Of a DNA stretch of 64,000 bases, positions 3,605-53,944 are shown piece after piece. Position numbers and translations under genes: made by a program. How positions within the stretch are numbered: position 1 is the first letter of the stretch; each line of letters starts with the position of its first letter. Origin of the DNA: Hirsutella rhossiliensis (taxonomy: Eukaryota > Ascomycota > Sordariomycetes > Hypocreales > Ophiocordycipitaceae); NCBI RefSeq assembly GCF_020360975.1, contig NW_025408667.1, positions 3,100,001 to 3,164,000 of the forward strand, in the 5' to 3' direction. The notes beneath the pieces are model-generated. The model was not told the origin of the DNA. It worked only from the letters and a program-made list of their open reading frames with translations, and searched no databases.

Positions 3605-4870
3605 ATCGTAAAGTATAATATAATTTTATAGTTCTTAAAGATATCTTATAGTAAAAGGGACTAAGGAAGCTAAAAAATAAGGTTTAAGGAAGGAGCTAAA
3701 AGGAAGTATAGAAAGAAGGGTAAGGGTAAAAAGGGAAGTAAAAGTAGTAATAGCTTTTTATAAAAGTAGTAAGAGATAAGACGGATATACTAGTAACGGC
3801 TAAAATAAAGGGGAAAAACTAGTAAAAAGCTTAGTAGTTAAGAGGATATTAATAGCTTCTTTAAGTAAGATCTTCTTTATTAATTAAGATATTAAATAGG
3901 TATAAAAAGGGGTATTAAATAAAGGAAAGAAGGATAATTAAAGCAATATAATAATTACTCCCTTACTATAATTACTACCCCTATAAGAATTAAATATCTC
4001 TACCCTTCCTATCTAACCCTTTACTTTTAATTTTACCTTTATATATTTTTATATACTTCTTATATCTCTCTTTATAAAAGTTATAAGCTTAGGAGGAATA
4101 AAATTCCTATACCTTTTAGCTACTATAAAAAGCACTTTTCTTATATCCCTTATAGCTTCCTTTTACCCCTCTTACTAAAAAAGCTAATTTTAAACTAACT
4201 TTTCTACCCTTCTCTTATAATAATATCGAAAAACGATTCCTTTACCGCCCTTATAGTTTATAAGACGATTCTTATAAAGCCCTAAAATTAAAATAAGTAG
4301 GTAAAAGAGCTATAGGCTTATATAGATAGAACTATTTATAATTTAGTCTTCTTTAATAAGTAGGACCCCCTTAAGCCCTCTCTTTATCTTAAGGTAATAG
4401 AATTTATAAAGAGAGCTTCCCTTTTCTTTAAGCTAACCTATATATAGTAGAAAGCTTTTTTTATTACCTTAAGTAACTATAAGAGTTACTATAAAGAATA
4501 CCTTTATAAGATAAAGCTACTAACTACTATATATATAGTAATAACGGAATCTATTAATACTATAAAGCTAATCTTTCTTTAAAAAGAAGAGACTCTTAAG
4601 TAGTAGCTTTTAAAGCTCGAGACCTAAATAGCTTCCTTAAGGGGCTATATAACTATAAGAATATACCCTTATATTCCTATTTTACTATTATAAAGAAATA
4701 ATAGGTATAGGGAGGCTCTATAGAATAAGCTAGTAAAAAGAGGCTCTATAATATAGTCTAAGGGAATAACCCTTAAAGAGAAAGACCTCTACTAGATATT
4801 AATACCTTCCTTTAAGAAAAGCGGGTTAAGATAAGCCTATCCTAATAAAATAAAATATATATAAAATGCA
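3605..4870 (+). mobile_element. copia-1 copy 2: RIP'd leader and gag
   Basis: This segment aligns with the reverse complement of 1–1790: the leader around 3880–4060 matches 1500–1320, and gag follows in the same order. Hand translation from about 4260 follows the intact gag, with TAA or TAG where the intact copy has Gln or Trp and with many Thr, Ala and Met codons changed to Ile or Val. Similarity is clear through the equivalent of RGYITDRI (near 4660) and becomes weak beyond it, so the two copies are related but not recent duplicates. No pol follows; the element is truncated before 5178. Confidence 0.7.
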
Positions 4871-5177
4871 TAAGTTACTTACGAGTAGAACGGATACCCT
4901 ATTACCTATTTTAGCCTAGCGGTTCTAAAGATATCCGCGATATAAGAATAGGTAATAGAATATTCTAGTTAAATCTACTACTTATACTAGAACCTATAGT
5001 CTTACGTTAACTATTACGTTATAATTAGACTACCTACTAAGTTAAAAAGATATACTATAGATAGAGCTTTTTAAGCACTATAGAATATACTAGAAAGCTA
5101 ACTAATCGGTATACTAGTAAGCGAGCAATAGTCTATAAAAGATAAAGGATTTCCTTAAGAGTAGTAGATAAAATAAG
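4871..5177. other. RIP'd sequence, nothing recognised
   Basis: This short stretch lies between the copia-1 gag remnant and the gypsy-1A LTR. It may be the diverged continuation of copia-1. No motif or repeat end is visible. Confidence 0.4.
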
Positions 5178-5628
5178 TATAACGACTAGTATTATTCCTA
5201 AGGGATAAACCTATCGAGGGGGTTTATATTAGCAGATATAATAGGGCGTAGTCTAAGTAATAATATATATATTACGTTAGTAATAAGTTAGAGGTCGTAG
5301 ACCGTAGACTATAACTAGGTAATTAGAATTAAAGATAGAATTATAATAAAGATCTATATTAAAAGCTAGAGAGCTATCTATCTAAAGAAGTAAAAGTAGG
5401 TAGCTATATATACCTATAAAGACTATCCTTAGATTATAAGCCTAGCTATAATCCCTAACGTTAGATTATATAGAGCGTAGTAATCTCGTTAATCTTAGAT
5501 TACTTAGATCTCTATAATCCCCTCGATCCTATATCTATTAGATAGTCGTGCCGACTATTTATCCGTTAGACCGTATTACGTGCTTAACGCGGTCGACCGT
5601 TAGCGGCTTAGTAGCTATAGTCGTAATA
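5178..5628 (-). repeat. gypsy-1A 3' LTR (alpha type), 451 bp
   Basis: The ends TATAACGAC...GTCGTAATA are RIP'd versions of TG...CA ends with an imperfect terminal inverted repeat. The purine-rich tract of the minus strand (seen as CTCCCCTCC at about 5636 on the plus strand) adjoins the right edge, as expected for a 3' LTR. Its middle portion matches the right LTR of gypsy-1B (53479–53944) but not the left one. Confidence 0.85.
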
Positions 5629-5688
5629 CGATATCTCCCCTCCTTTTAGTCTTATCCGTAAGACTTACTATAGCTACCTTAGCCGCCG

Positions 5689-5698
5689 TATATAAATA
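5689..5698 (+). promoter_or_regulatory. TATA box of the gypsy-1A antisense ORF
   Basis: TATATAAATA lies about 85 bp upstream of the probable start (ATA, from ATG, at 5783) and reads opposite to pol. The same motif is at 46623–46632 in gypsy-1B, although the downstream ORFs differ. It may lie within element 3' sequence by chance, but conservation and spacing favour a promoter. Confidence 0.45.
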
Positions 5699-5782
5699 TA
5701 CCTTTATCGCGTTGTACGTAAGTATATCGTTCCTTATCTCTTTATCCTTTTAGGATATACTACTAATAGTATATCTAGTTAT

Positions 5783-6449
5783 ATACTAAAAAATCGTTCC
5801 CGAAAAGCCTTTAAGCGCGCTACTCTTACTAAATATATCGACTTAAGTAGAGATCCTACTAATATACTATATACTCGATACTTTAAGGCAAAGAAGATAA
5901 ATTATTAGATAGCCGAAAATTCTTCGCGCTATAATAATTATATTACTAGTAGTCGTCCCTATTATAATAGTATTTTAGTAGCCTCTTCTTATAAGTATCT
6001 TTTAATTCTTTCTATACGTAGTAGCTAATATATTTCTTTTAGTAACTAAATTATTAGTAAAGTAGCGTAGGCTATATTCTAAAGAGGAGGAAGCTAGGGA
6101 AGCCTTATTAGAGCTTTAGGTATAGCTTATAAATCTTTAGTTATAAATATCTATCGCCGTTAATCGTTTAGCTTATATCTAGAAGATTTAGAATCGTATA
6201 AAAGAAAAGAGTTTTAAGTTATTTCGTCGTAGTATCTAAGAAGTAGATACTAAGGATAGCGTTTTACCTACGCTCGATATATATAAGTATTAAGTAGTAA
6301 ATAACTTATAATCGTTAGGCGTTCTTAATAAGGCGAATTAGTCCTTATTTAGTATTAGTAAGGAGTTTATAGATCTTAGTCCTTTAATCCCTCCTAAACC
6401 TTTTAGTAAAATTATCGAAGTAGAGAGCTATAGTAGGTTAAGTACTTAA
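5783..6449 (+). pseudogene. Antisense accessory ORF of gypsy-1A: Cys6 motif plus coiled coil
   Basis: The ORF reads opposite to pol, between the 3' LTR and the pol chromodomain. Its first part (frame from 5783) holds six Tyr codons (TAT/TAC, probable RIP products of TGT/TGC) spaced x2, x7, x8, x2, x6. This is close to fungal Zn(II)2Cys6-type clusters. The second part, in the frame starting at 6045, is a charged coiled coil containing SKEEEAREALLEL, and ends at TAA 6447–6449. The two parts lie in frames offset by one. GT at 5970, CTAAT near 6024 and TTTTAG ending at 6042 would make a 73-bp intron that restores the frame. Most in-frame stops are TAA/TAG at expected Gln positions. The layout recalls hypothetical proteins common in fungal genomes; the role is unknown, perhaps DNA binding. 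Confidence 0.55.
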
Positions 6450-6450
6450 G

Positions 6451-9400
6451 TAGTTCCTAGGTATTTTCCTCTAGTTTATATCCCTTTTACTTAATAAGGT
6501 ATTCTTATTACTAACCTTATTTTCTTATATCTAGTATTTATTCTACTTTATATTCTTAATTATCGTTAACTTCGATTTTTTCCTATAGTTTAGCGTTTTA
6601 TAGCGCTAGTTTTAATAATAAGATATAAAATATCGGGTATATCTATATTATTATTAGTAGCGAAAGTTTATAGTTAACTTTTAAAATAGTTTCCTTAACC
6701 TTAAACGGTCTAAGTTTCTTAAAATCTAATTTATTGCTTAGTCGTTTTATTTTAATATTTCGTTATACGAGGTAGACTATATCTCCCTCTTAAAAGATTA
6801 GTCCCTATAATCTTTTCCGATTATAGTAAGTAGATATTTATTCTCTAATAAATTAAAGTTCTTATTATATTTCTTTATATAATTTTTATAGCTAGTTTAC
6901 TTATAGTATCGCTTATTCCGCTTATAGTCTTTATTAAGTAACCTTAAATGCTTCTAGGTTATATCTATAATTAGCGTATACTAGTAAGAGCTTAGTTATT
7001 TCTATAACTAAGCTATTATAAGCTAATTATACTATTAGTAGCTATTTAACTTAATCGTTTTATTTATAGCTAATATAGTATCGTAAATATTATTTAAGCG
7101 TTTAGTTAAGTCGTTCTATTTATCTATCTATTTATAGGTAATAAGCTATACTAAGCTTATATTTCGTCCCTAACTATACTATAAGAGCTTACTAAAACTT
7201 AGCTATAAATATACTTCTTTTATTAAAGATAATCTTATTTAGTAGTCTATAATTACTAATAATTATTTATAGGAATATATATACTAGCTCTTCTATATTA
7301 CCTACTTCTTTATACGGTAAAAAGTATCTATACTTCGTTAATCTATCGGTAATAACGAATATACTATTATACTTAACGTTAGTTATAGGTTCTTTTAATA
7401 GTAGTAGCTTTATAATATAGTCGAAAGCTATTAAATCCTATAGTTTCTCTAATACTAATAGCGGTTATAATTCTTTATATAGTTTATATCGTTTAGCTTT
7501 ACTTTATATATAAAGTTTATATTCTTTAATAACTTATTATACTACTTCTTTAAGCTATAAGAAGTTATATTATTATTTAATCCGTTTTATTATTCTTTAG
7601 ATTCCCTAGTATCTATATATTAGATATTTATATATATCTTATATAACTTTATCTTATATTTCTAGTAGTATCTATATTTTATTTTTATATATTAAAACTT
7701 CTAAATATCCTATATTATATCTATTTAGTGCTTTATATTCTTATATCTATTTTAGGATCTTTTAGTAAGTTAAGTTATTAGGTTATACTTTAAATATTAT
7801 ATTTAGCTATTATTACTAGTAGTTCCTATTTTCGTTAATTTCTAAGAGCTATCCTTTCGCTATAGGTACTCTTATATCGTAGTTACTTCGTCGACTAAAG
7901 GCATTAGCTCGACTATTTTCTATTCCTTTTTTATAGATTATTTTATAATCGAATTCTAATAAATATTTAGCCTATTAGATCTATCGTCTATTTAACTATT
8001 ACGTCGTTATAAAATATAAGATATTCTTATAGTCTATATAGACCTTAACTTTATATTTACTTTTAAGAAGGTAGTATTAAAATTCCTTAAAAGCTTAAAT
8101 AATTACGAGGAATTCTTTATCGTAGATAGGGTAATTAAGTTCTACGCTATATAGCTTTTTCGAATAAAATATAATTAGTTATAGTCTTCTTTTATTGCCC
8201 TTTTATCCGATTTATACTCTTAAAGTAAAGTCTAATATATTAGTTTTAAGTTTAATTTATTATTTTAGATCGAAGGTAGTTAAGACTAGTTCTTACGTAA
8301 TTATAGTCTTAATATATTCGAAAGCTTCGTTAGCTTTATCGTCCTATATAAATTCTTTTTCCTTCTTTATTAAGTCGTATAGTAATACTATAATCTTTCC
8401 GAAATCTTTAATAAATCGTTAGTAGTAATTTATAAATCTTAGGAAACTTTATACGTCCTTAACGTTCTTTAGCGTTAGCTATTCTTTAACTAAGTTAATC
8501 TTATCTTATTATATTTATATCTCTCTTAGTAAGATTATATATCTAAGGAAGTTTACTTCCTATATATAGAACTTACTTTTCTTTAGTTTAACTAGTAACT
8601 TTATATTTTAAAGTACGCGGAGTACCTTATAAACGTATTCCTTATATTCTTCTAGGGTATCCGAGAAGATTAGGATATTATCTAGGTATACTACTATAAA
8701 GATATCTAAGTATTTACATAGGATATTATTAATTATTTATTAAAAGGTAGCTAGTATATTTATAAGTCTAAATAGTATTACTAGATATTTAAATAGTCTG
8801 AATTTCGTTCTAAAAGCTATTATTTATTCGCGTCCCTTTTCTATATATATTAAGTTATAGGCGCCTTTAAGGTTAAGGGCTATAAACTATTTTTTACTAT
8901 ATAGTCGATCTTATAGTTTTAATATAAGCGGTAATAGTATTCGGTCCTTTATTATAATATCGTTTAAGCGTCTATAGTCGATAACTAGTTATAGCTTACC
9001 GTTTTTCTTTAAAATAAATATAACTAGATAGCTTACTTTAGATATTAATATTTATATATATCCTTTTTATAGATTCTTATCGAGGTAGTCGCGTAGCGTT
9101 TATAGTTACTTTTCGTTTAAGTTATAGATTTTATAGAACGTCGGCGTTATTCTATCCTTAAGATAAATTTCGTAGTCCTATTAGCTATATTCGGGTAACC
9201 CTATCTTAAGTTCTTCCTTAAAGAGTTTATTATATTTTCAGTATTCTTAAGGGATATTCTTTATTTTATCTTATAGGCTTTATTCTTTCTTTTAAGAGCT
9301 AGTTTCTCTTAACTTAAGCTCTTTATTAATTTATTTAAGGTCTTTCCTTAAAGTAATAATAACTCTTTAGATCTTTATATTATATCCTTTATTTTATTTA

Positions 9401-10335
9401 TATTAGATACTAAGTTATATAGCTATATTAGTTAGTATATAGGTCTTATTAATCGATTTTATTATATCTACTAGTTTAGTTATTATTTTCGTTTATATCG
9501 CTAAAGCCTATAATAATTTACTTAAACGGTTATCCTTTTTATCCTATTTAGTAGCTAAATTATTATAAAATTTTACTTTCTCTTAAATCTACTAGTCCTA
9601 GAAACTTATATCTTCGTTTTAATATAGCTAGCTAGTTCTCTAGTTAATTAGTAGGTTACTCTCCTATAGCTATAGAAGTCCTAATATAAGGTTATATTCT
9701 TTAATATCTATAATATTAAAGTTAACTTATTTATCGTAGCCCTAGATATTAATATTAAGGTAATTAATCTTTATATTAATAATTTCGTTATTATAGTTAA
9801 AGGCCTCTCCTTTAATATTCGTAAGTTTATATAGATCTATCTTATATCTCTATATAAGTTAGTAACGATTAACGACTTTAGGTAAAACGTAATTACCTAT
9901 CGCGCTATAGTCTAAAAGTATACGTACGTAATATCCTACGATTTAGATATCTAATACTATTTAGTCGCTATAGCTTACCGTTACTATATATAGGGTCCTT
10001 AGATCTTATTATATTATGCTAGTCTATAGCCCTTTTATAGATAGCGTACCTCGTTTTTTACTTAGTCCTTATTTATTTTATTTAAGTATTCTTCTTCGAT
10101 TTATTATAAATATCGTTTCTTTACGTTTTTATCGCGTAGTATTATATTAAGGCTTAAGAGATTAATTTCTTATAGCTAATTAAAGATTTCTTATTTCTTA
10201 ACGCTATATCGTTTATATTATACTACTTCGTAGTTAATTACGTACTATACTTTATAATTCTATTTATTTTTATACTAAAGGTTAAGTTTTTATTCTATAT
10301 CTTTCTATTTTTTATATAGTATTTCTATATTAATT
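6451..10335 (-). pseudogene. gypsy-1A pol (RT–RNase H–integrase–chromodomain), RIP'd and truncated
   Basis: Read leftward, this is the pol of a Ty3/gypsy chromovirus. The RT catalytic box is at 8677–8688 and reads YLDN, the second Asp having become Asn (GAT to AAT, a TpG-to-TpA change on the other strand). Downstream come RNase H, integrase and, at 6451–6555, a C-terminal chromodomain with the pattern EYKVE-ILDIRK followed by QEYLIK-KGY. Chromodomains of this type direct integration to heterochromatin. Numerous TAA/TAG codons replace Gln/Trp, so no product is possible. The N-terminal gag–protease part is missing because of the junction at 10335. Confidence 0.8.
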
Positions 10336-44539: not shown

Positions 44540-46104
44540 AATATAGCTAATTAAATATAAAACTTAGGAATTTTCCTACCTCCTTAGGAATAAGGAGGCT
44601 ATAAGAGGCCGCTAGGTCTATACTATTAAGAAGGATAGTTAAAATAATATAATAAAATATAAAGCTTATTTTATAATATAGGGATTTAAGTAGATCTATA
44701 GCTTAGATTTCCTAGATACCTTCTTAACTATAGCTAGACCTAAATCTATTAGAATTCTACTTATTTTAGCTATTATCTATAAATTTAAAGCTTTATAAAT
44801 AGATATAATAAATACCTTTATATATACTAATATAGATAGCGAAGTATATATTAATCTTTTTATAGGCTATAAAGAATACGCTCTTAAAGATATTATTTAA
44901 AATATAGATTAGCTTATAAAGCTAAATAAATTAAATTAACTAAATTACTAGACCTATATAAAACCAGCTAAATTAAAGTAAAGCTAAAGAAAGTATTATA
45001 TAGCCTAAAATAAAGCCCTAAGCTCTAGTATAATTATTTAAAAATTATACTAAATAAACTTAGATTTCTTTCTCTTTTAATAGATAAAGGAGTATTTATA
45101 AATAAGGACTATAGTATAGCCTTAGTAATTTACGTCGACGAATTTCTTATAGTAGGGCCCTTTAAATCTATAATAAAAGAAAGATTATTTAAAGAATTAT
45201 CTAAATTCCTAGATTTTACTATCTTAAGAGATATAAAAGACTTCTTAGGTTTAAATATTATATTAAACCGAGAAAATAAAGAGCTATATATATCCTAAGA
45301 AGATTATACCTTAAAAATATTAAAGGAATTTAATATAGAAGGTTTAGGAACTTTAAATTTACCCGCTATAGTAGGCTTTAAGCTTATAAAAGTAAAGGAA
45401 TTACCTTTTAAGGAAGATATATTATAATTTTAAAAAGAAATCGGATCTTTATTATACTTAGCTTTATTTACTAGGCTAGATATCTTATATTCTATAAGTT
45501 CCTATACTAGATTCGCGGCTAAGCCTAACTAGATATATTCTAAGGCTTTAAATATAATTTAGAAATATTTAAATAAATTTCCTAGCCTAAAGATTAAATA
45601 AAATTATAATATCCCTTTTACCTATCTATATATATAGGGTTTTACCGACTCTAGCTAAGCGTCGGACTTAATAGATAGAAAATCCTTTTCCGGTTACTAT
45701 TTTTATATATATAATAATATAATAAGCTAGGCTTACTCTAAGTAAAAAGCTATTACCCTTTCTACTTATAAAGTAAAGTATATTAGCCTTAAGGAGGTAA
45801 ATAAAGAAGCTATTTATTTAAATATGCTTTTTAAATATATTACTAAGGATCTATCTATTAAGATTCTTAATACTATACCTTTTATTTTAACGGATAATAC
45901 TACTACTATTAAATTAATAGAAAATCCGTAATTTTATAAAAGGTCTAAGTATATAAGATTAGCTTATTACTATACTAAAACTAATATAAGAGAAAGGGAA
46001 ATTAGAGTTTTTTATATTAAATTAAAAGATAATATAGCTAATATTCTTATAAAGGAATTAAGACCTAGATTACTTTATAGATTTAGAGATAGTCTATCCT
46101 TAAT
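44540..46104 (+). pseudogene. copia-2 RT and RNase H, truncated at 46104
   Basis: The RT catalytic box at 45131–45142 reads YVDE instead of the usual YVDD; GAC to GAA is not a RIP change. FLGLNIILNRENKELYISQ (about 45240–45300) and the RNase H motifs GFTDSS-ASDLIDRKSFSGYYF (45640–45710), YISLKEVNKEAIYLNMLF and DNTTTIKLIENP follow in the usual order. The reading ends with LLYRFRDSLSLII just before the gypsy-1B LTR, close to the natural end of pol. Confidence 0.8.
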
Positions 46105-46568
46105 TATAACGACCGGTATTATTCCTAAGGGATAAACCTATCGAGGGGTTTATATTAGTAGATATAATAGGGCATAGTCTAACTAATAATAAGTATATTA
46201 CGTTAGTAATAAGTCGGAGGTTATAGACCGTAGACTATAATTAGGTAATTAGAATTAGAGATAGAATCGTAATAAAGATCTATATTAAAAGCTATCGAGC
46301 TATCTATTTAAAGGAGTATTCCGTTCCTTCCTTATATATCTTAAGAGCTTCCCTAGATCGCCGAGAGCACTTAGTAATCCCGTCGCTTAGGAGCGCTAGG
46401 GCGCTAGAGCGATCCTATGATCTAGCTATAGAGCGTTAGAGCGCTAGAGTAACCCGTTGCTCTAAACTTAATTAGCCCGTCGGTCCGTCTAATATTCCTT
46501 GCTCCCTACGTTACTTATCCTCGTAATATATACTAGTCCCCGCGGTTCGTTAGACCGTAGTCGTAATA
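46105..46568 (-). repeat. gypsy-1B left LTR (beta type, 464 bp)
   Basis: The outer about 200 bp match the other gypsy-1 LTRs (TATAACGACC start, GTCGTAATA end). From about 46315 to 46550 it is unrelated to them. This middle includes GAGCGCTAGGGCGCTAGAGCG and CGTTAGAGCGCTAGAG, short GC-rich repeats, and keeps rare TG/CA such as CCTATGATC. Confidence 0.8.
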
Positions 46569-46622
46569 GGATACCTCCCCTCCTTTTAGTCTTACCCTTA
46601 AGACCTACTACCTTAGCCGCCG

Positions 46623-46632
46623 TATATAAATA
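46623..46632 (+). promoter_or_regulatory. TATA box of the gypsy-1B antisense ORF
   Basis: TATATAAATA stands in the same context as at 5689–5698 (following GCCGCCG), upstream of the antisense ORF. Confidence 0.45.
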
Positions 46633-46722
46633 TACCCTTATTACGTTATACGTAAGTATATTATTCCTTATTCCTTTATCCTTTTAGGATATACTACTAA
46701 TAGTATATCTAGTTATATTTAA

Positions 46723-47353
46723 AAATCCCGTTCTCGTAATTCCGATAAATCGCGTTAACGATCGGAGCTAGTATCCTAGACCGAGATCTATAGTATTAAA
46801 ATTATACCTTACTCCCGTTATTTTCGGTTAGGCCTAACTTATAAAGTCGGCGAGCGTTTTAATTAGTATTTTAAATATGCCTTTATAGGCCGTTCTTATA
46901 ATAGGTATAATATAGCGTCCGCTTATTTATTTTATCCCTTTCCTTCTTTATTATTCTTTTTTACTAATATTCCTTCTTTTTCTAGTTCGTTATATTATAA
47001 ACTAATAGTAAAAGATTAATTTAGATAAATAGAAAGTAAAAGAAGCGTTAAAGGAAGTAATAGCTCGCTTAGCTCGGATTAAGAAATAAAAGCGTTTCTT
47101 AAAGGACTAAGGTAGTAAGTTATTTTAGTAGGGTATATAAGCTATTAATAAAGAAGATAGTATAACGCGTTCTTTTTAAGATAAATCGGTTTATTTATTA
47201 AATAAGGAAACTATTACTATTAGCGAGGTTTAATCGTTTAGTACCTTAGATATATTAGACTAGGATACTATTCTTAGTAACCCTATATTTCTAAGTAAGG
47301 GTTCGCTTAGTAGAACTATTAAAGTAGAGAACTATAATAGGTTAAGTACTTAA
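46723..47353 (+). pseudogene. Antisense accessory ORF of gypsy-1B: Cys6 motif plus coiled coil
   Basis: This is the counterpart of 5783–6449 but a different sequence. The first part (frame from 46723) has six Tyr codons (expected Cys) spaced x2, x6, x8, x2, x6 between about 46834 and 46899. The second part, shifted by one frame as in gypsy-1A, is a strong coiled coil (KVKEALKEVIARLARIKK, about 47029–47085) followed by a Ser/Thr/Leu-rich tail ending at TAA 47351–47353. Between them TACTAAT near 46965 and TTTTCTAG ending at 46985 look like intron branch and acceptor sites; the donor is unclear, perhaps lost to RIP. The start is uncertain. Confidence 0.55.
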
Positions 47354-47354
47354 G

Positions 47355-50300
47355 TAGTTCCTAGGTATTTTCCTTTAGTTTATATCCCTTTTACTTAATA
47401 AGGTATTCTTATTACTAACTTTATTTTCTTATATCTAGTATTTATTCTACTTTATATTCTTAATTATCGTCGACTTCGATTTTTTCTTATAGTTTAGCGT
47501 TTCGTAGCGCTAGTTCTAATAATAAGATATAAAATATCGGGTATATCCGTATTATTATTAGTAGCGAAAGTTTATAGTTAACTTTTAAAATAGTTTTCTT
47601 AACCTTAAACGGTCTAAGTTTCTTAAAATCTAATTTATTACTTAGTCGTTTTATTTTAATATTTCGTTATATAAGGTAGACTATATCTCCTCTTAAAAGA
47701 TTAGTCCCTATAATCTTTCTAATTATAGTAAGTAGATATTCGTTCTATAATAAATTAAAGTTCTTATTATATTTCTTTATATAATTTTTATAGCTAATCT
47801 ACTTATAGTATCGCTTATTCCGCTTATAGTCCTTATTAAGTAACCTTAAATACTTCTAGGTTATATCTGTAATTAGCGTATACTAGTAAGAGCTTAGTTA
47901 TTTCCGTAACTAAGCTATTATAAGCTAGTTACGCTATTAGTAGCTATTTAACTTAATTGTTTTATTCGTAGCTAATATAGTATTATAAATATTATTTAAG
48001 CGTTTAGTTAAGTCGTTCTATTTATCTATTTATTTATAGGTAATAAGCTATACTAAGCTTATATTTCGTCCTTAATTATACTATAAGAGCTTACTAAAAC
48101 TTAGCTATAAACGTGCTTCCTCTATTAAAGATAATCTCGTTTAGTAGTCTATAATTACTAATAATAGTTTATAGGAATATATATACTAGCTCTTTTATAT
48201 TACTTACTTCTATATATAGTAAGAAGTATCTATACTTTATTAATCTATTAATAATAATAAATATACTATTATACTTAACGTTAGTTATAAGTTCTTTTAA
48301 TAGTAGTAGCTTTATAATATAGTTAAAAGCTATCGAATCCTATAGTTTCTTTAGTACTAATAGCGGTTATAATTCTCTATATAGTTTATATCGTTTAGCT
48401 TTACTTTATATATAAAGTTTATATTCTTTAATAACTTATTATACTACTTCCTTAAGCTATAGAAAGTTATATTATTATTTAATCCGTTTTATTATTCTTT
48501 AGATTCCTTAGTATCTATATATTAGATATTTATATATATCTTATATAACTTTATCTTATAATTCTAGTAGTATCTAGATTTTATTCTTATATATTAAAAC
48601 TTCTAAATATTCTATATTATATCCCTTTAGTACTTTATATTCTTTTATTTATTTTAAGATCTTTTAGTATATTAAGTCATTAGGTTATACTTTAAATATT
48701 ATATTTAGCTATCGTTACTAGTAGTTCCCGTTTTCGTTAATTTCTAAGAGCTATCCTTTCGCTATAGGTGCTCCTATATTATAGTTACTTCGTTAACTAA
48801 GGGTATTAGCTTAACTATTTTCTATTTCTTTTCTATAGATTATTTCGTAGTTAAATTCTAATAAGTATTTAGCCTATTAAATCTATTATCCGTTTAACTA
48901 TTATATTATTATAAAGTATAAGATATTCTTATAATCTATATAGACCTTAACTTTATATTTACTTCTAAGAAAGTAATATTAAAATTCCTTAAAAGCTTAA
49001 ATAATTATAAGGAATTCTTTATTATAGATAAGGTAATTAAGTTCTATACTATATAGCTTTTTTAAGTAGAATGCAATTAATTATAGTCTTTCTTTATTGC
49101 CCTTTTATCCGATTTATACTCTTAGAGTAAAGTCTAATATATTAGTTTTAAGTTCGATTTATCGTTTTAGATTAAAGGTAGTTAAGACTAGTTCTTATAT
49201 AATTATAGTCTTAATATATTGGAAAGCTTCGTTAGCTTTATCGTCCTATATAAATTCTTTTTCCTTTTTCGTTAAGTTATATAGTAGTACTATAATCTTT
49301 CTAAAATCTTTAATAAATCGTTAGTAGTAATTTATAAATCCTAGGAAACTTTATATATCCTTAACGTTCTTTAGCATTAGCTATTCTTTAACTAAGTTAA
49401 TCTTATCTTATTATATCTATATCTCTCTTAGTAAGATCGTATATCTAAGGAAGTCTACTTCCTATATATAGAACTTACTTTTCTTTAGTTTAACTAATAA
49501 CTTTATATTTTAAAGTATATAGAGTACCTTATAAATATATTCCTTATATTCTTCTAGGGTATCTAAGAAGATTAGGTTATTATTTAAGTATACTACTATA
49601 AAGATATCTAAGTATCTACGTAGGATATTATTAATTATCTATTAAAAGGTAGCTAGTATATTTATAAGTCTAAATAGTATTACTAGATATTTAAATAGTC
49701 TAAATTTCGTTTTAAAGGCTATTATCTATTTATATCCTTTTTTATATATATTAAGTTATAAGCGCCTTTAAGGTTAAGGGCTATAAACTATTTTTTACTA
49801 TATAGTCGATCTTATAGTTCCGATATAAGCGGTAATAGTATTTAGTCTTTTATTATAATATCGTTTAAGCGTTTATAGTTAATAACTGGTTATAGCTTAC
49901 TATTTTTCTTTAAAATAAATATAACTAGATAGCTTATTTTAGATATTAATATTTATATATATCCTTTTTATAGATTCTCGTTAAGGTAGTCGCGTAGCGT
50001 TTATAGTTACTTTTCGTTTAAGTTATAGATTTTATAAAACGTCGGCGTTATTCTATCCTTAAGATAAATTTTATAGTCCTATTAACTATATTTAAGTAAC
50101 CCTATCTTAAGTTCTTCCTTAAAGAGTTTATTATATTTTCGGTATTCTTAAGGGATATTCTTTATTCTATCTTATAGGCTTTATTCTTTCTTTTAAGAGC
50201 TAGTTTCTCTTAACTTAAGCTCTTTATTAATTTATTTAAGGTCTTTCCTTAGAGTAGTAATAACTCTTTAGATCTTTATATTATATCCTTTATTCTATTT

Positions 50301-51300
50301 ATATCGGATACTAAGTTATATAGCCGTATTAGTTAGTATATAGGTCTTATTAGTCGATTTTATTATATCCGCTAGTTCGGTTACTATCTTCGTTTATATC
50401 GCTAAAGCCTATAATAATTTACTTAAACGGTTATCCCTTTTATCTTATTTAGTAGCTAAATTATTATAAAATTTTACTCTCTCTTAAATCTACTAGTCCT
50501 AGAAACTTATATCTTCGTTTTAACGTAGCTAGCTAGTTTTCTAGTTAATTAGTAAGTTACTCTCCTATAGCTATAGAAGCCTTAATATAAGGTTATATTC
50601 TTTAATATCTATAATATTAAAGTTAACTTATTCGTTATAGCCCTAGATATTAATATCGAGGTAATTAATCTCTATATTAATAATTCCGTTATTATAGTTA
50701 AAGGCTTCTCTTTTAATATTCGTAAGTTTATATAGATCCTTTTTATATCTCTATATAAGTCGGTAACAATTAATAACTCTAAGTAAAATATAATTGCCTA
50801 TCGCGCTATAGTCTAAAAGTATATATATATAATATCCTACGATTTAGATATTTAATACTATTTAGTTACTATAGCTTACCGTTACTATATATAGGGTCCT
50901 TAGATCTTATTATATTATACTAGTCTATAGCCCTTTTATAGATAGTATACCTTGTTTTTTACTTAGTCCTTATTTATTTTATTTAGGTATTCTTCTTTAA
51001 TTTATTATTAATATCGTTTCTTTATATTTTCGTCGCGTAGTATTATATTAGGGCTTAAGAAACTAATTTCTTATAGCTAATTAAAGATTTCTTATTTCTT
51101 AACGCTATATCGTTTATATTATATAGCTTTATAGTTAATTACGTACTATACTTTATAATTTTATTTATTTTCGTATTAAAGGTTAAGTTTTCGTTTAGCG
51201 TTTTTTTATTTTTTATATAGTATTTCTATATTAATTCTTCCTTAGTTAAATATAGCTTATAGCCTTTATATATATTACTAATAATCTTTTAGTATACCGT
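47355..51300 (-). pseudogene. gypsy-1B pol with C-terminal chromodomain
   Basis: Read leftward: RT (box at 49579–49590 reads YLNN, both Asp changed), RNase H, integrase and chromodomain at 47355–47460. It is nearly identical to gypsy-1A pol apart from scattered transitions, some in each copy, so RIP acted on both independently. Confidence 0.8.
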
Positions 51301-53478
51301 TATATCGTTTATACTATACTTATACTTTTTTATATTTATAAACTCTATAGTTTAGGTATATATATTTATTATAATCTTCTTTATTATATTTAATTCGTTA
51401 TATAAGTCTTTAAAAGATTAATAGTTTAGATGCCTTAAAGTAAGTAGCGCTATACTATTCCTTTATTTTAGCGTATTTATAGATTTTATATATCTCTAAA
51501 AGATATCTCGTTAATAAACTATAATTATCGCGGTATTTAAGTAGTATACTATAATCGGGTTTTAATAATATAACTTAGTCGTTTAGGTAGCGTTAATCGA
51601 TTTTCTAGTAGTTTAGTTCTATACTTAAGTAGGGTTTTAAAAGTACTTATCCTTTAAACCTAACTAAGAAGGCGTCGTATTATACCTTTATCTAGAAGTA
51701 TATTATATAATCTAGGTAGATATATAATATCTATAAAATATACTTATAGTGCTTATAAGTAAGTAGTATTTATAGATCGTCTCTAAATTCTCCTTATAGT
51801 TACTATTCTTATTATAAAGCTATAAAGGTATCGATTATAGCGATAGCTATAGTATAGTCTTCTCTACGTAGTACTAGTTAATACTAAATTAATATAGCTT
51901 ATTAGTTTTCTATAAGAATTTAAGGTATTTATTAGGTTCTAATTTTAAGTATTTCTTTAAATTCTTTAAAGTATAGAGCGTATTCTTTAATTATAGTATT
52001 TTCCCTTAGTAGCGAGGGTAGTAGTATAAGTTTATTCTTATCTTTCGTTTCTCTAAGTATTTCTTATTCTTTAAAGCTTATATCGTCGATACTTTATTAT
52101 TCTTCCTTAGGTTATTATCCGAGTTTCGTAAGTATAAGGGCTATATCTATATCTTCCTTCTTATATTATTTATAAACTACTTATTATTATTATTAATTTT
52201 TATTTCGTATATCTTCTTAGAATCGTTTACCGTTCTTCTTAATCTAGTCCTAGGAGACTCCTTTAAAATAGGGGTATTCTAGTTCTACGAATTTAACTTA
52301 TTTCTATATTTTAGGATCCCTTTATTATATTATTATAAGGGTTTTCTTTAGTAACTTTAAGAACTATCTAGTACCGTTTTTATCGCTTAAGTATACTATA
52401 TATTTATCGTCGTAGTATATAGTCTAACTAAGGAGTTTATACTTTAGTTCCTATCTATTAATAGCGTTTAAGTATTTCTTACCTTTTAAGGCTAGTACCT
52501 AATAGGTTTTCTTCTCCTTATAAGGTTATCTATATTCTTTAAAGTAATATCTAGGTTTCTTATAGTTAAAATACTTTCCTTTACTTTTCTATATTATATT
52601 TAGATCTATCCTACTTAGGTTAGTTATATAAGTATAGGTAATAGGAGTTTCGCGCTTCTTTTTATAGTTAGCGTTAGTTAAAGTTATTCCTATAAAAAGG
52701 GTTCTAGTTTCCTCTTCCTTATTTCTTTTCTTAGCGTCGCGTATACTATCTATCGTCGATTCGTACTACTATAGTAATATAGTTTAAGAGGTTATTAGGT
52801 CGATTTTCCTTATAGAGCTCGTCCTTAACTTTTTCTTTAAGCTTATTATAGAATTAGGATATAAGAGGTTCGTTATCTTAATTAAGTTTTAAGGTAACTT
52901 AACGGAACTTTAAAGTATAATCTAATACTAAAATCCTTTATTAAAGTTCTTAAAGTTTCTATTTAGCTTCTCGTTCCTTATTAGTTATTCTAAATACCTT
53001 TATAATAGCTTCTTTAAATCCTTAGAAACTAGTAAAGACTTTATCTATCTTATTATCTTATTGCGCTAGTTAATTATCGAGAAAATCCCTTATAATAGGT
53101 CTAAACTAAGCGAGTACCGTTCTAGATAAATAATTTCCTACGTAGAGTACCTTTTCGACTAGGTCTAAGAGTTTAATAGGGTAAAACCGGTAGTAGGCTT
53201 TAAGTTAAGTAAGAAAGTCTCGAAGTATACTATAAGTACTATTAAATAGTCCTAGCTATTTTAGTTTAACTACTTCTCTAAGGTCCTTAACTTATCTATT
53301 ACCTCCTCCGTTCCTAAGTAACTATACCTTATATTAAAGGGTAATAATCTCGCGTATTATATCCTAAGGCGATATAGTAGCTCTAGAGTTAGTTAATCTA
53401 GTTTACTATATAGGTATATTAATAGTTACGATATTACTTAGAGTAACGCGGTATTATACTAAATAAGAGCTTTTAATG
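51300..53478 (-). pseudogene. gypsy-1B gag region
   Basis: This is the 5' portion of the element between pol and the 5' LTR, absent from gypsy-1A. By position it should hold gag and the leader. Reading leftward gives interrupted coding-like stretches, but I could not pick out a capsid motif or zinc knuckle with confidence. Confidence 0.45.
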
Positions 53479-53944
53479 TATAACGACCGGTATTATTCCT
53501 AAGGGATAAACCTATCGAGGGGTTTATATTAGTAGATATAATAGGGCGTAGTCTAAGTAATAATATATATATTACGTTAGTAATAAGTCGGAGGTTATAG
53601 ACTATAGACTATAACTAGGTAATTAAGTAATTAGAATTAGAGATAAGATCGTAATAGAGATCGTAATAATTATATTAAAAGCTAGAGAGCTATCTATCTA
53701 AAGGAGTAAAAGTAGGTAGCTATATATACCTATAGAGACTATCCTTAGATTATAGGCCTAGCTATAATCCCTAACGTTAGATCGTATAGAGCGTAGTAAT
53801 CCTATTAATCCTAGATTACTTAGATCTTTATAATCCCCTTAATCCTATATCTATTAGATAGTCGTGCTAACTATTTATCTATTAGACCGTGTTACGTGCT
53901 TAACGCGGTCGACCGTTAGCGGCCTAGTAGCCGTAGTTATAATA
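53479..53944 (-). repeat. gypsy-1B right (5') LTR (alpha type, 466 bp)
   Basis: It matches the gypsy-1A LTR (5178–5628) along its whole length, with one short duplication near 53640–53670. It ends GTTATAATA and abuts gypsy-3 pol sequence. Confidence 0.85.

Follow-up and report, generated by a model that had tools for sequence, protein, structure and literature searches.

Three versions of an antisense zinc-cluster-like gene, each with its own promoter version, suggest a matched switch carried by a fungal Ty3/gypsy element

In temperate phages that share a backbone, the immunity region is swapped as a whole, the regulator gene moving together with its operators. To our knowledge, the self-limitation of retrotransposons and the coexistence of their subfamilies in one genome are little understood outside Ty1. 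The copy number of Ty1 is controlled by p22, which is self-encoded and subfamily-specific, and whose specificity is moved by recombination (PMC7055915, PMC10951436). Plant Retand elements, which are Ty3/gypsy elements outside the chromoviruses, regularly carry antisense genes in the interval from pol to the 3' long terminal repeat (LTR), and a DNA-binding regulatory role has been proposed for them (PMC11963269). Here, we describe a gene of the same place and orientation in gypsy-1, a Ty3/gypsy element of the fungus Hirsutella rhossiliensis, of which two copies, gypsy-1A and gypsy-1B, lie in a 64,000-nucleotide stretch of contig NW_025408667.1 (positions 3,100,001 to 3,164,000; hereafter the window, numbered from its first base). 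The antisense gene exists in three versions, each with its own version of the promoter region in the unique 3' (U3) part of the LTR, a sequence pattern that suggests a matched switch built into the element itself.

The comparison with these systems is close in some respects and fails in others. Retand differs from gypsy-1 in being a plant element without a chromodomain, with an extra region of 2.9–6.6 kb that encodes an unrelated TRP28 domain (PF04195), and an allelic pairing of the gene with U3, present in gypsy-1, is absent from the excerpted account (PMC11963269). Pfam scans of the antisense pieces of gypsy-1 gave no match to TRP28. Self-encoded, subfamily-specific control is common to Ty1 p22 and the proposed gypsy-1 regulator; however, p22 is a Gag fragment that acts on particle assembly (PMC7055915, PMC10951436), whereas the gypsy-1 gene lies on the opposite strand beyond pol and so does not fit control of the Ty1 type. 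HBZ of human T-cell leukaemia virus 1 (HTLV-1) is likewise the product of a retroelement antisense gene, and is nuclear (PMC11963269). It belongs to an animal retrovirus and is a different protein from that of gypsy-1. We know of no three-allele cassette for HTLV-1 HBZ. Unlike gypsy-1, which is known from sequence, phage immunity regions have an established function, and they belong to bacterial viruses and use other protein folds. Fungal proteins that bind DNA as dimers have a zinc cluster with heptads after it, and the predicted antisense protein resembles the Zn2Cys6 proteins Gal4, Hap1 and Leu3 in its Cys spacing and in two short predicted helices followed by heptads. It differs from them in scoring under the Pfam cut-off, in its length of ~150–160 residues without a large effector domain, and in being encoded by a retrotransposon.

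Reverse transcriptase, RNase H, a C-terminal chromodomain (in copy L069), LTRs and a polypurine tract identify gypsy-1 as a Ty3/gypsy chromovirus, and in both window copies the interval from the pol end to the 3' LTR holds a gene on the plus strand. A preliminary description of the window had proposed this antisense gene, with six cysteines followed by a heptad region, and its reality is confirmed. The tested stretches between about 2 and 55 kb of the window have almost no CpA or TpG (in 6450–10330, CA+TG number 9 against 320 for AC+GT), which corresponds to saturated repeat-induced point mutation (RIP), and the 30 copies closest to the gypsy-1A region among those examined hold 0–11 CA+TG per ~849 bp. 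Less-mutated relatives were found by protein queries of the genome (81.8 Mb in 40 contigs), though none of the copies read is free of mutation. At 5864–5965, starting from the start-codon position at 5864, gypsy-1A and gypsy-1B read Tyr at all six positions that are Cys in the less-mutated copies. The zinc clusters of the latter are MPCTRCFKAKKTNCRMAENSSRCNNCVASGRPHCD (type A, copy L076), MPCSRCFRLGLTCKVGERSNRCSECAFVGRSCN (type B, L069) and MPCSFCSSRGFRCKMLEKSSKCAECVRRGRSCD (type C, L074). The cysteines are spaced 2-6-8-2-6 in types B and C and 2-7-8-2-7 in type A, in which the first loop is one residue longer. Zn2Cys6 proteins follow C-x2-C-x6-C-x5..12-C-x2-C-x6..8-C, and by its Cys spacing the antisense gene belongs to this pattern. 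The six aligned Cys-derived Tyr codons of the preliminary description are therefore borne out for this set. Its wording fits equally a second six-Tyr set in the leader (5696–5785), which does not hold: less-mutated copies do not have Cys at all six positions, the set is not conserved in type C, and it aligns between gypsy-1A and gypsy-1B only because the leader DNA is nearly identical.

Divergence between types was counted as transversions, because RIP does not make them. In exon 2, these fall on codon positions 1, 2 and 3 as 70/44/99 (309 codon pairs from three type pairs, which are non-independent) and in exon 1 as 26/20/31 (104 codon pairs), a bias that supports protein coding. The coiled coil proposed earlier stands as a heptad periodicity in all three types, calculated from the moment: among 5000 shuffles, the observed value was reached 79 times for type A, 123 times for B and 37 times for C. 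Given the codon-position bias, the heptad periodicity and three homologous alleles, the gene is more than chance. The zinc exon is stop-free in all five less-mutated copies, a weak sign by itself given its small length and the other frames that are likewise open. Although the alleles differ at about half of the gene bases, protein identity between types is 44–50% in exon 1 and 36–43% in exon 2 without stops, or 32–38% when the tail shared with the chromodomain is also left out.

A short intron between the zinc exon and the second exon is probable, judging from reading frames and candidate splice sites. The frame offset that the preliminary description had ascribed to an intron is real in types A and B (+1), where fitting intron lengths can be drawn, but it is 0 in type C, and a good 5' splice site is present in type C alone, the sites in A and B being poor. 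Candidate introns are 51 nt in C (GTAGGT), 52 or 61 nt in B and 46–79 nt in A, with a branch-point-like motif in each type. Upstream, the TATA box assigned earlier to this gene (TATAAATATA at 5691–5700) is kept in the leader of 60 of the 62 copies read, with near variants in the other two. Downstream, the gene and pol are oriented tail to tail as had been described, but rather than merely meeting they overlap by ~40–47 nt, because the chromodomain frame, which reaches ~6403–6409 on the minus strand, runs past the plus-strand stop. The Chromo domain (PF00385, cut-off 25.1 bits) scores 34.6 bits in L069 and 22.9 bits in gypsy-1A. The preliminary description would be refuted if homologues of the gene never lay beside gypsy pol; in this genome they do, since all 62 copies read adjoin a gypsy LTR and the chromodomain stretch is present wherever a copy was read far enough.

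This gene exists as three alleles, A, B and C, on a single backbone. Among seven copies, between-type transversions are 23–25% in the gene and 19–30% in U3, and 0–0.9% in the chromodomain stretch, 0–4.6% in the repeat and unique 5' regions of the LTR (R-U5) and 0.7–5.2% in the leader (A versus B, 1 in 140; C, 4–5%). Within types they are 0–0.1% in the gene and 0–0.8% in U3. Past the chromodomain region, the backbone comparison covered types A and B, and 50-bp windows were also used for all types. Comparing gypsy-1A with gypsy-1B in 100-bp windows gave transversions of 2–5% in R-U5, 27–37% in U3 (13% in a mixed window), 0% in the leader, 22–31% in the gene (11% in the last, mixed window) and 0–1% over 6471–10270, with one window at 4%. 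The first 35–56 bp of U3, around a TATA-like stretch, are common to types A and C and absent in B. This block pattern gives U3 and the gene the look of alleles that diverged long ago and now sit on a backbone of recent common origin. The locus resembles an immunity cassette in that a putative regulator gene and a promoter region vary jointly on a shared backbone.

At least 40 copies of type A and at least 150 of type B were scored, and a further 150 matches listed comprise 5 of type B by coordinates and ~145 that are C-like by score. Forty chromodomain matches scored from 754 candidates divide into 12 A, 16 B and 12 C; these were sorted by hand, with B and C typed by coordinates and A by sequence, in a sample that favours L074-like copies and in which L084 is interrupted. 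No fourth type was present among these 40. In L084 (G000:C2:3007060-3008260), ~745 bp of other sequence splits a type A antisense gene.

The U3 type equals the gene type in every one of 62 copies (42 of type A, 17 of type B and 3 of type C), with no other pairing. This set includes the window copies, as L009 and L057, and leaves out L084, in which the interruption pushes U3 off the fetched stretch. Pairs were also assigned by coordinates, using the 40 U3 A and 40 U3 B matches listed together with 40 A and 152 B gene copies (gypsy-1B falls outside these lists). Among the matches listed, adjacent U3 and gene copies are concordant in 22/22 pairs, and those at the distance of a 5' LTR in 18 of 19. 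The U3 regions themselves offer suggestive evidence of type-specific iterated motifs, as a hint for type C, partly for B and not for A, in tests that were made post hoc. GCTCAC occurs 6, 5 and 6 times in the U3 of three type C copies and is absent from those U3s of types A and B that were examined, and none of 500 shuffles reached the 6-mer count in any of the three; GAGCG-type repeats occur in two of three type B copies.

We propose, at slightly less than an even chance, that the antisense gene encodes a dimeric zinc-cluster-like regulator that acts on the LTR promoter of its own element, the gene and U3 forming a matched specificity cassette. The TATA promoter beside the polypurine tract would drive the antisense gene, whose transcript would be spliced into the message for a small protein, zinc-cluster-like at its N terminus and dimerising through heptads. 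This protein would bind U3 sequences of the matching element type and set sense transcription, and its likeliest action would be repression that limits copy number. An element with a new cassette could then evade control by the regulator already in place, in the manner of heteroimmune phages. If U3 is the target, the protein and U3 should co-vary while the rest stays constant and the leader remains free to stay as it is, and the observed pattern fits. The DNA-binding role offered as a guess in the preliminary description is thereby supported indirectly, through a linkage of U3 and gene that the description had not noticed. By analogy with Ty1 self-limitation and phage immunity, we favour repression over activation, because matched cassettes on one backbone are the expected product of escape from a resident repressor. 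The fuller reading, in which an antisense zinc-cluster repressor and cognate U3 operators form a heteroimmunity cassette whose three or more alleles are kept on one backbone by selection for escape, is in our judgement less probable.

Several observations weigh against this proposal. The linkage would be accounted for just as well by an activator, and it is also expected with no function at all if gene and U3 are inherited together as one block. The 62 copies were chosen mainly by gene type and are non-random, type C resting on three; one of the 19 pairs at 5'-LTR distance disagrees, and gypsy-1B has a type A U3 in its 5' LTR and a type B U3 in its 3' LTR. The profile search recommended in the preliminary description gave Pfam Zn_clus (PF00172, cut-off 21 bits) only below its cut-off, with 13.9 bits in type C, 13.4 bits over part of type B and no match in A, and we therefore write zinc-cluster-like and assign no Zn2Cys6 membership; the 28 chains that Foldseek lists for the predicted fold are all Zn2Cys6 entries, but their E-values are weak (0.66 or more). 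CGG/CCG half-sites show no clear enrichment in U3. Windows outside the LTR reached the type C 6-mer count in 32 of 169 cases in L075 (0 of 170 in L074), L069 has no type B repeats beyond shuffles, and the GATCC count of the type A U3 is matched by windows outside the LTR. Finally, the coding frame of exon 2 has 5–6 stops in every less-mutated copy examined, and although it has the fewest stops among plus-strand frames in types B and C, in type A it is surpassed by a different frame (4 stops versus 6).

The stops would suit a chance or decayed frame that makes no protein and, at most, a non-coding antisense transcript. We consider this very improbable in view of the six aligned cysteines, the exon 2 identity that persists across such diverged alleles and the excess of transversions at third positions. 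The serious rival to a matched cassette is a passively moved block, in which template switching during reverse transcription moved a 3' block of gene, leader and U3, so that the gene is real and its linkage to U3 purely physical. One border of such a block would lie at the R/U3 junction, the site of strand transfer, and the A versus B borders do lie near this junction and at the end of the chromodomain, as a single block transfer predicts; gypsy-1B may itself be chimeric. The leader stands in the way, being nearly unchanged (A versus B, 1/140) between blocks that differ at 20–30%, and block exchange therefore needs either strong constraint on these 140 bp or further exchanges, with the caveat that the difference between the A/B and A/C leader values rests on few sites. 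On balance, we judge passive exchange less likely than not, though well ahead of the remaining alternatives.

Among these, a counter-defence role, in which host silencing is blocked by the antisense protein and the divergence of this protein records an arms race with the host, would suit a genome that silences as hard as the RIP saturation indicates and the strongly diverged gene alleles. It does not predict a change of U3 alongside the gene, and the second codon positions change least, which is a sign of constraint with no excess of protein change; we regard it as improbable. Target choice, an option named in the preliminary description, would have the protein, encoded beside the chromodomain, guide integration through binding of host DNA. 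A zinc-cluster-like region with heptads could tether the element to sites, yet the chromodomain stretch is common to the types and the U3 linkage is left unexplained, and we give this role very little weight.

The features of the two window copies are collected in Table 1. By its discordant LTRs, gypsy-1B appears to be a chimera or two insertions. In the minus-strand pieces of gypsy-1A, a match to SH3_Tf2-1 is just under the Pfam cut-off, and the mutated pieces gave no Pfam integrase match; by eye, an integrase-like stretch lies at 7267–7437. Elsewhere in the window, at 1–1750 and 3689–4654, a stretch with few traces of RIP (166 CA+TG within its first 1.7 kb) lies 2–3 kb from an inverted, RIP-mutated relative with 72–76% complementarity. 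The low-RIP stretch holds a 230-residue minus-strand open reading frame (ORF; 455–1147) that is gag-like in appearance.

Table 1. Positions of gypsy-1 features in the window
Feature	Position	Strand	Basis or remark
gypsy-1A	~5177–10335	-	Cut off at 10335; 3' LTR from 5177 to ~5628
R-U5 of gypsy-1A 3' LTR	5177–5391	-	Common to types A, B and C; matches both gypsy-1B LTRs; U3 border approximate (sequence comparison)
U3 of gypsy-1A 3' LTR, type A, first variable block	5392–5628	-	Transversions 19–30% between types, 0–0.8% within
Leader, conserved island from U3 to the gene	5633–5780	+	Holds TATA box (5691–5700); between-type transversions 0.7–5.2%
Polypurine tract, complement CTCCCCTCCTTTT	5635–5647	-	Sequence; kept in gypsy-1B
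Antisense gene exon 1, zinc-cluster-like Cys6 region	5864–5965	+	Mutated in gypsy-1A; six Cys in less-mutated A, B and C copies
Probable intron region	5966–6042	+	3' end 6042, 5' end uncertain; frame offset and candidate sites
Antisense gene exon 2	6043–6449	+	Heptad region ~6084–6248, stop 6447–6449; codon-position bias, heptad moment, reading frame
Chromodomain, end of pol	6403–6552	-	Overlaps antisense gene tail to tail; Pfam Chromo in gypsy-1A (below cut-off) and L069 (above); frame comparison
RNase H region of pol	7951–8244	-	Pfam RT_RNaseH, E 5e-14 (5.1e-14)
Reverse transcriptase region of pol	8539–8982	-	Pfam RVT_1, E 3.5e-12
gypsy-1B	~46101–53944	-	Two LTRs
R-U5 of gypsy-1B 3' LTR	46105–46316	-	91% to gypsy-1A
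U3 of gypsy-1B 3' LTR, type B	46325–46550	-	Sequence comparison
Leader of gypsy-1B	46575–46714	+	88% to gypsy-1A; 1 transversion in 140
Antisense gene of gypsy-1B, type B	46804–47353	+	Zinc region from 46804; second exon to ~47353
5' LTR of gypsy-1B, U3 type A	53478–53944	-	Discordant with its own 3' LTR

Relatives of the antisense protein were also sought more widely. Zn_clus matches listed in the genome number 100, and the ordinary Zn_clus genes were considered as the family to which it might belong; 18 loci were read and none does. Near-identical Zn_clus ORFs of ~226–228 residues lie at several places, L049, L050 and L051 (C15, C8 and C7 of G000), with no RIP-like loss of CA/TG, and represent a different, multi-copy kind of zinc-cluster gene. 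Outside this genome, searches of a large protein collection returned 36, 372 and 2 candidates (E limits 1, 0.1 and 10) and no homologue. This absence means little, because the 2 candidates for a little-mutated zinc cluster suggest that the collection holds few fungal proteins. One scan of viral contigs and a PDB sequence search likewise gave no homologues. In line with the preliminary description, short proteins with six cysteines and a coil appear to be common in fungal genomes, which offers a lead. Our searches of the open-access literature gave no gypsy element from a fungus in which a zinc-cluster gene runs antisense, and the main text of a fungal LTR survey is without the words antisense, additional ORF, extra ORF and third ORF (PMC3248453).

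If the proposal is correct, it would explain how three types of gypsy-1 coexist on one backbone, and a class of short zinc-cluster-like proteins of fungi would gain a role. Self-recognition among retroelements would then become testable by simple binding and reporter assays.
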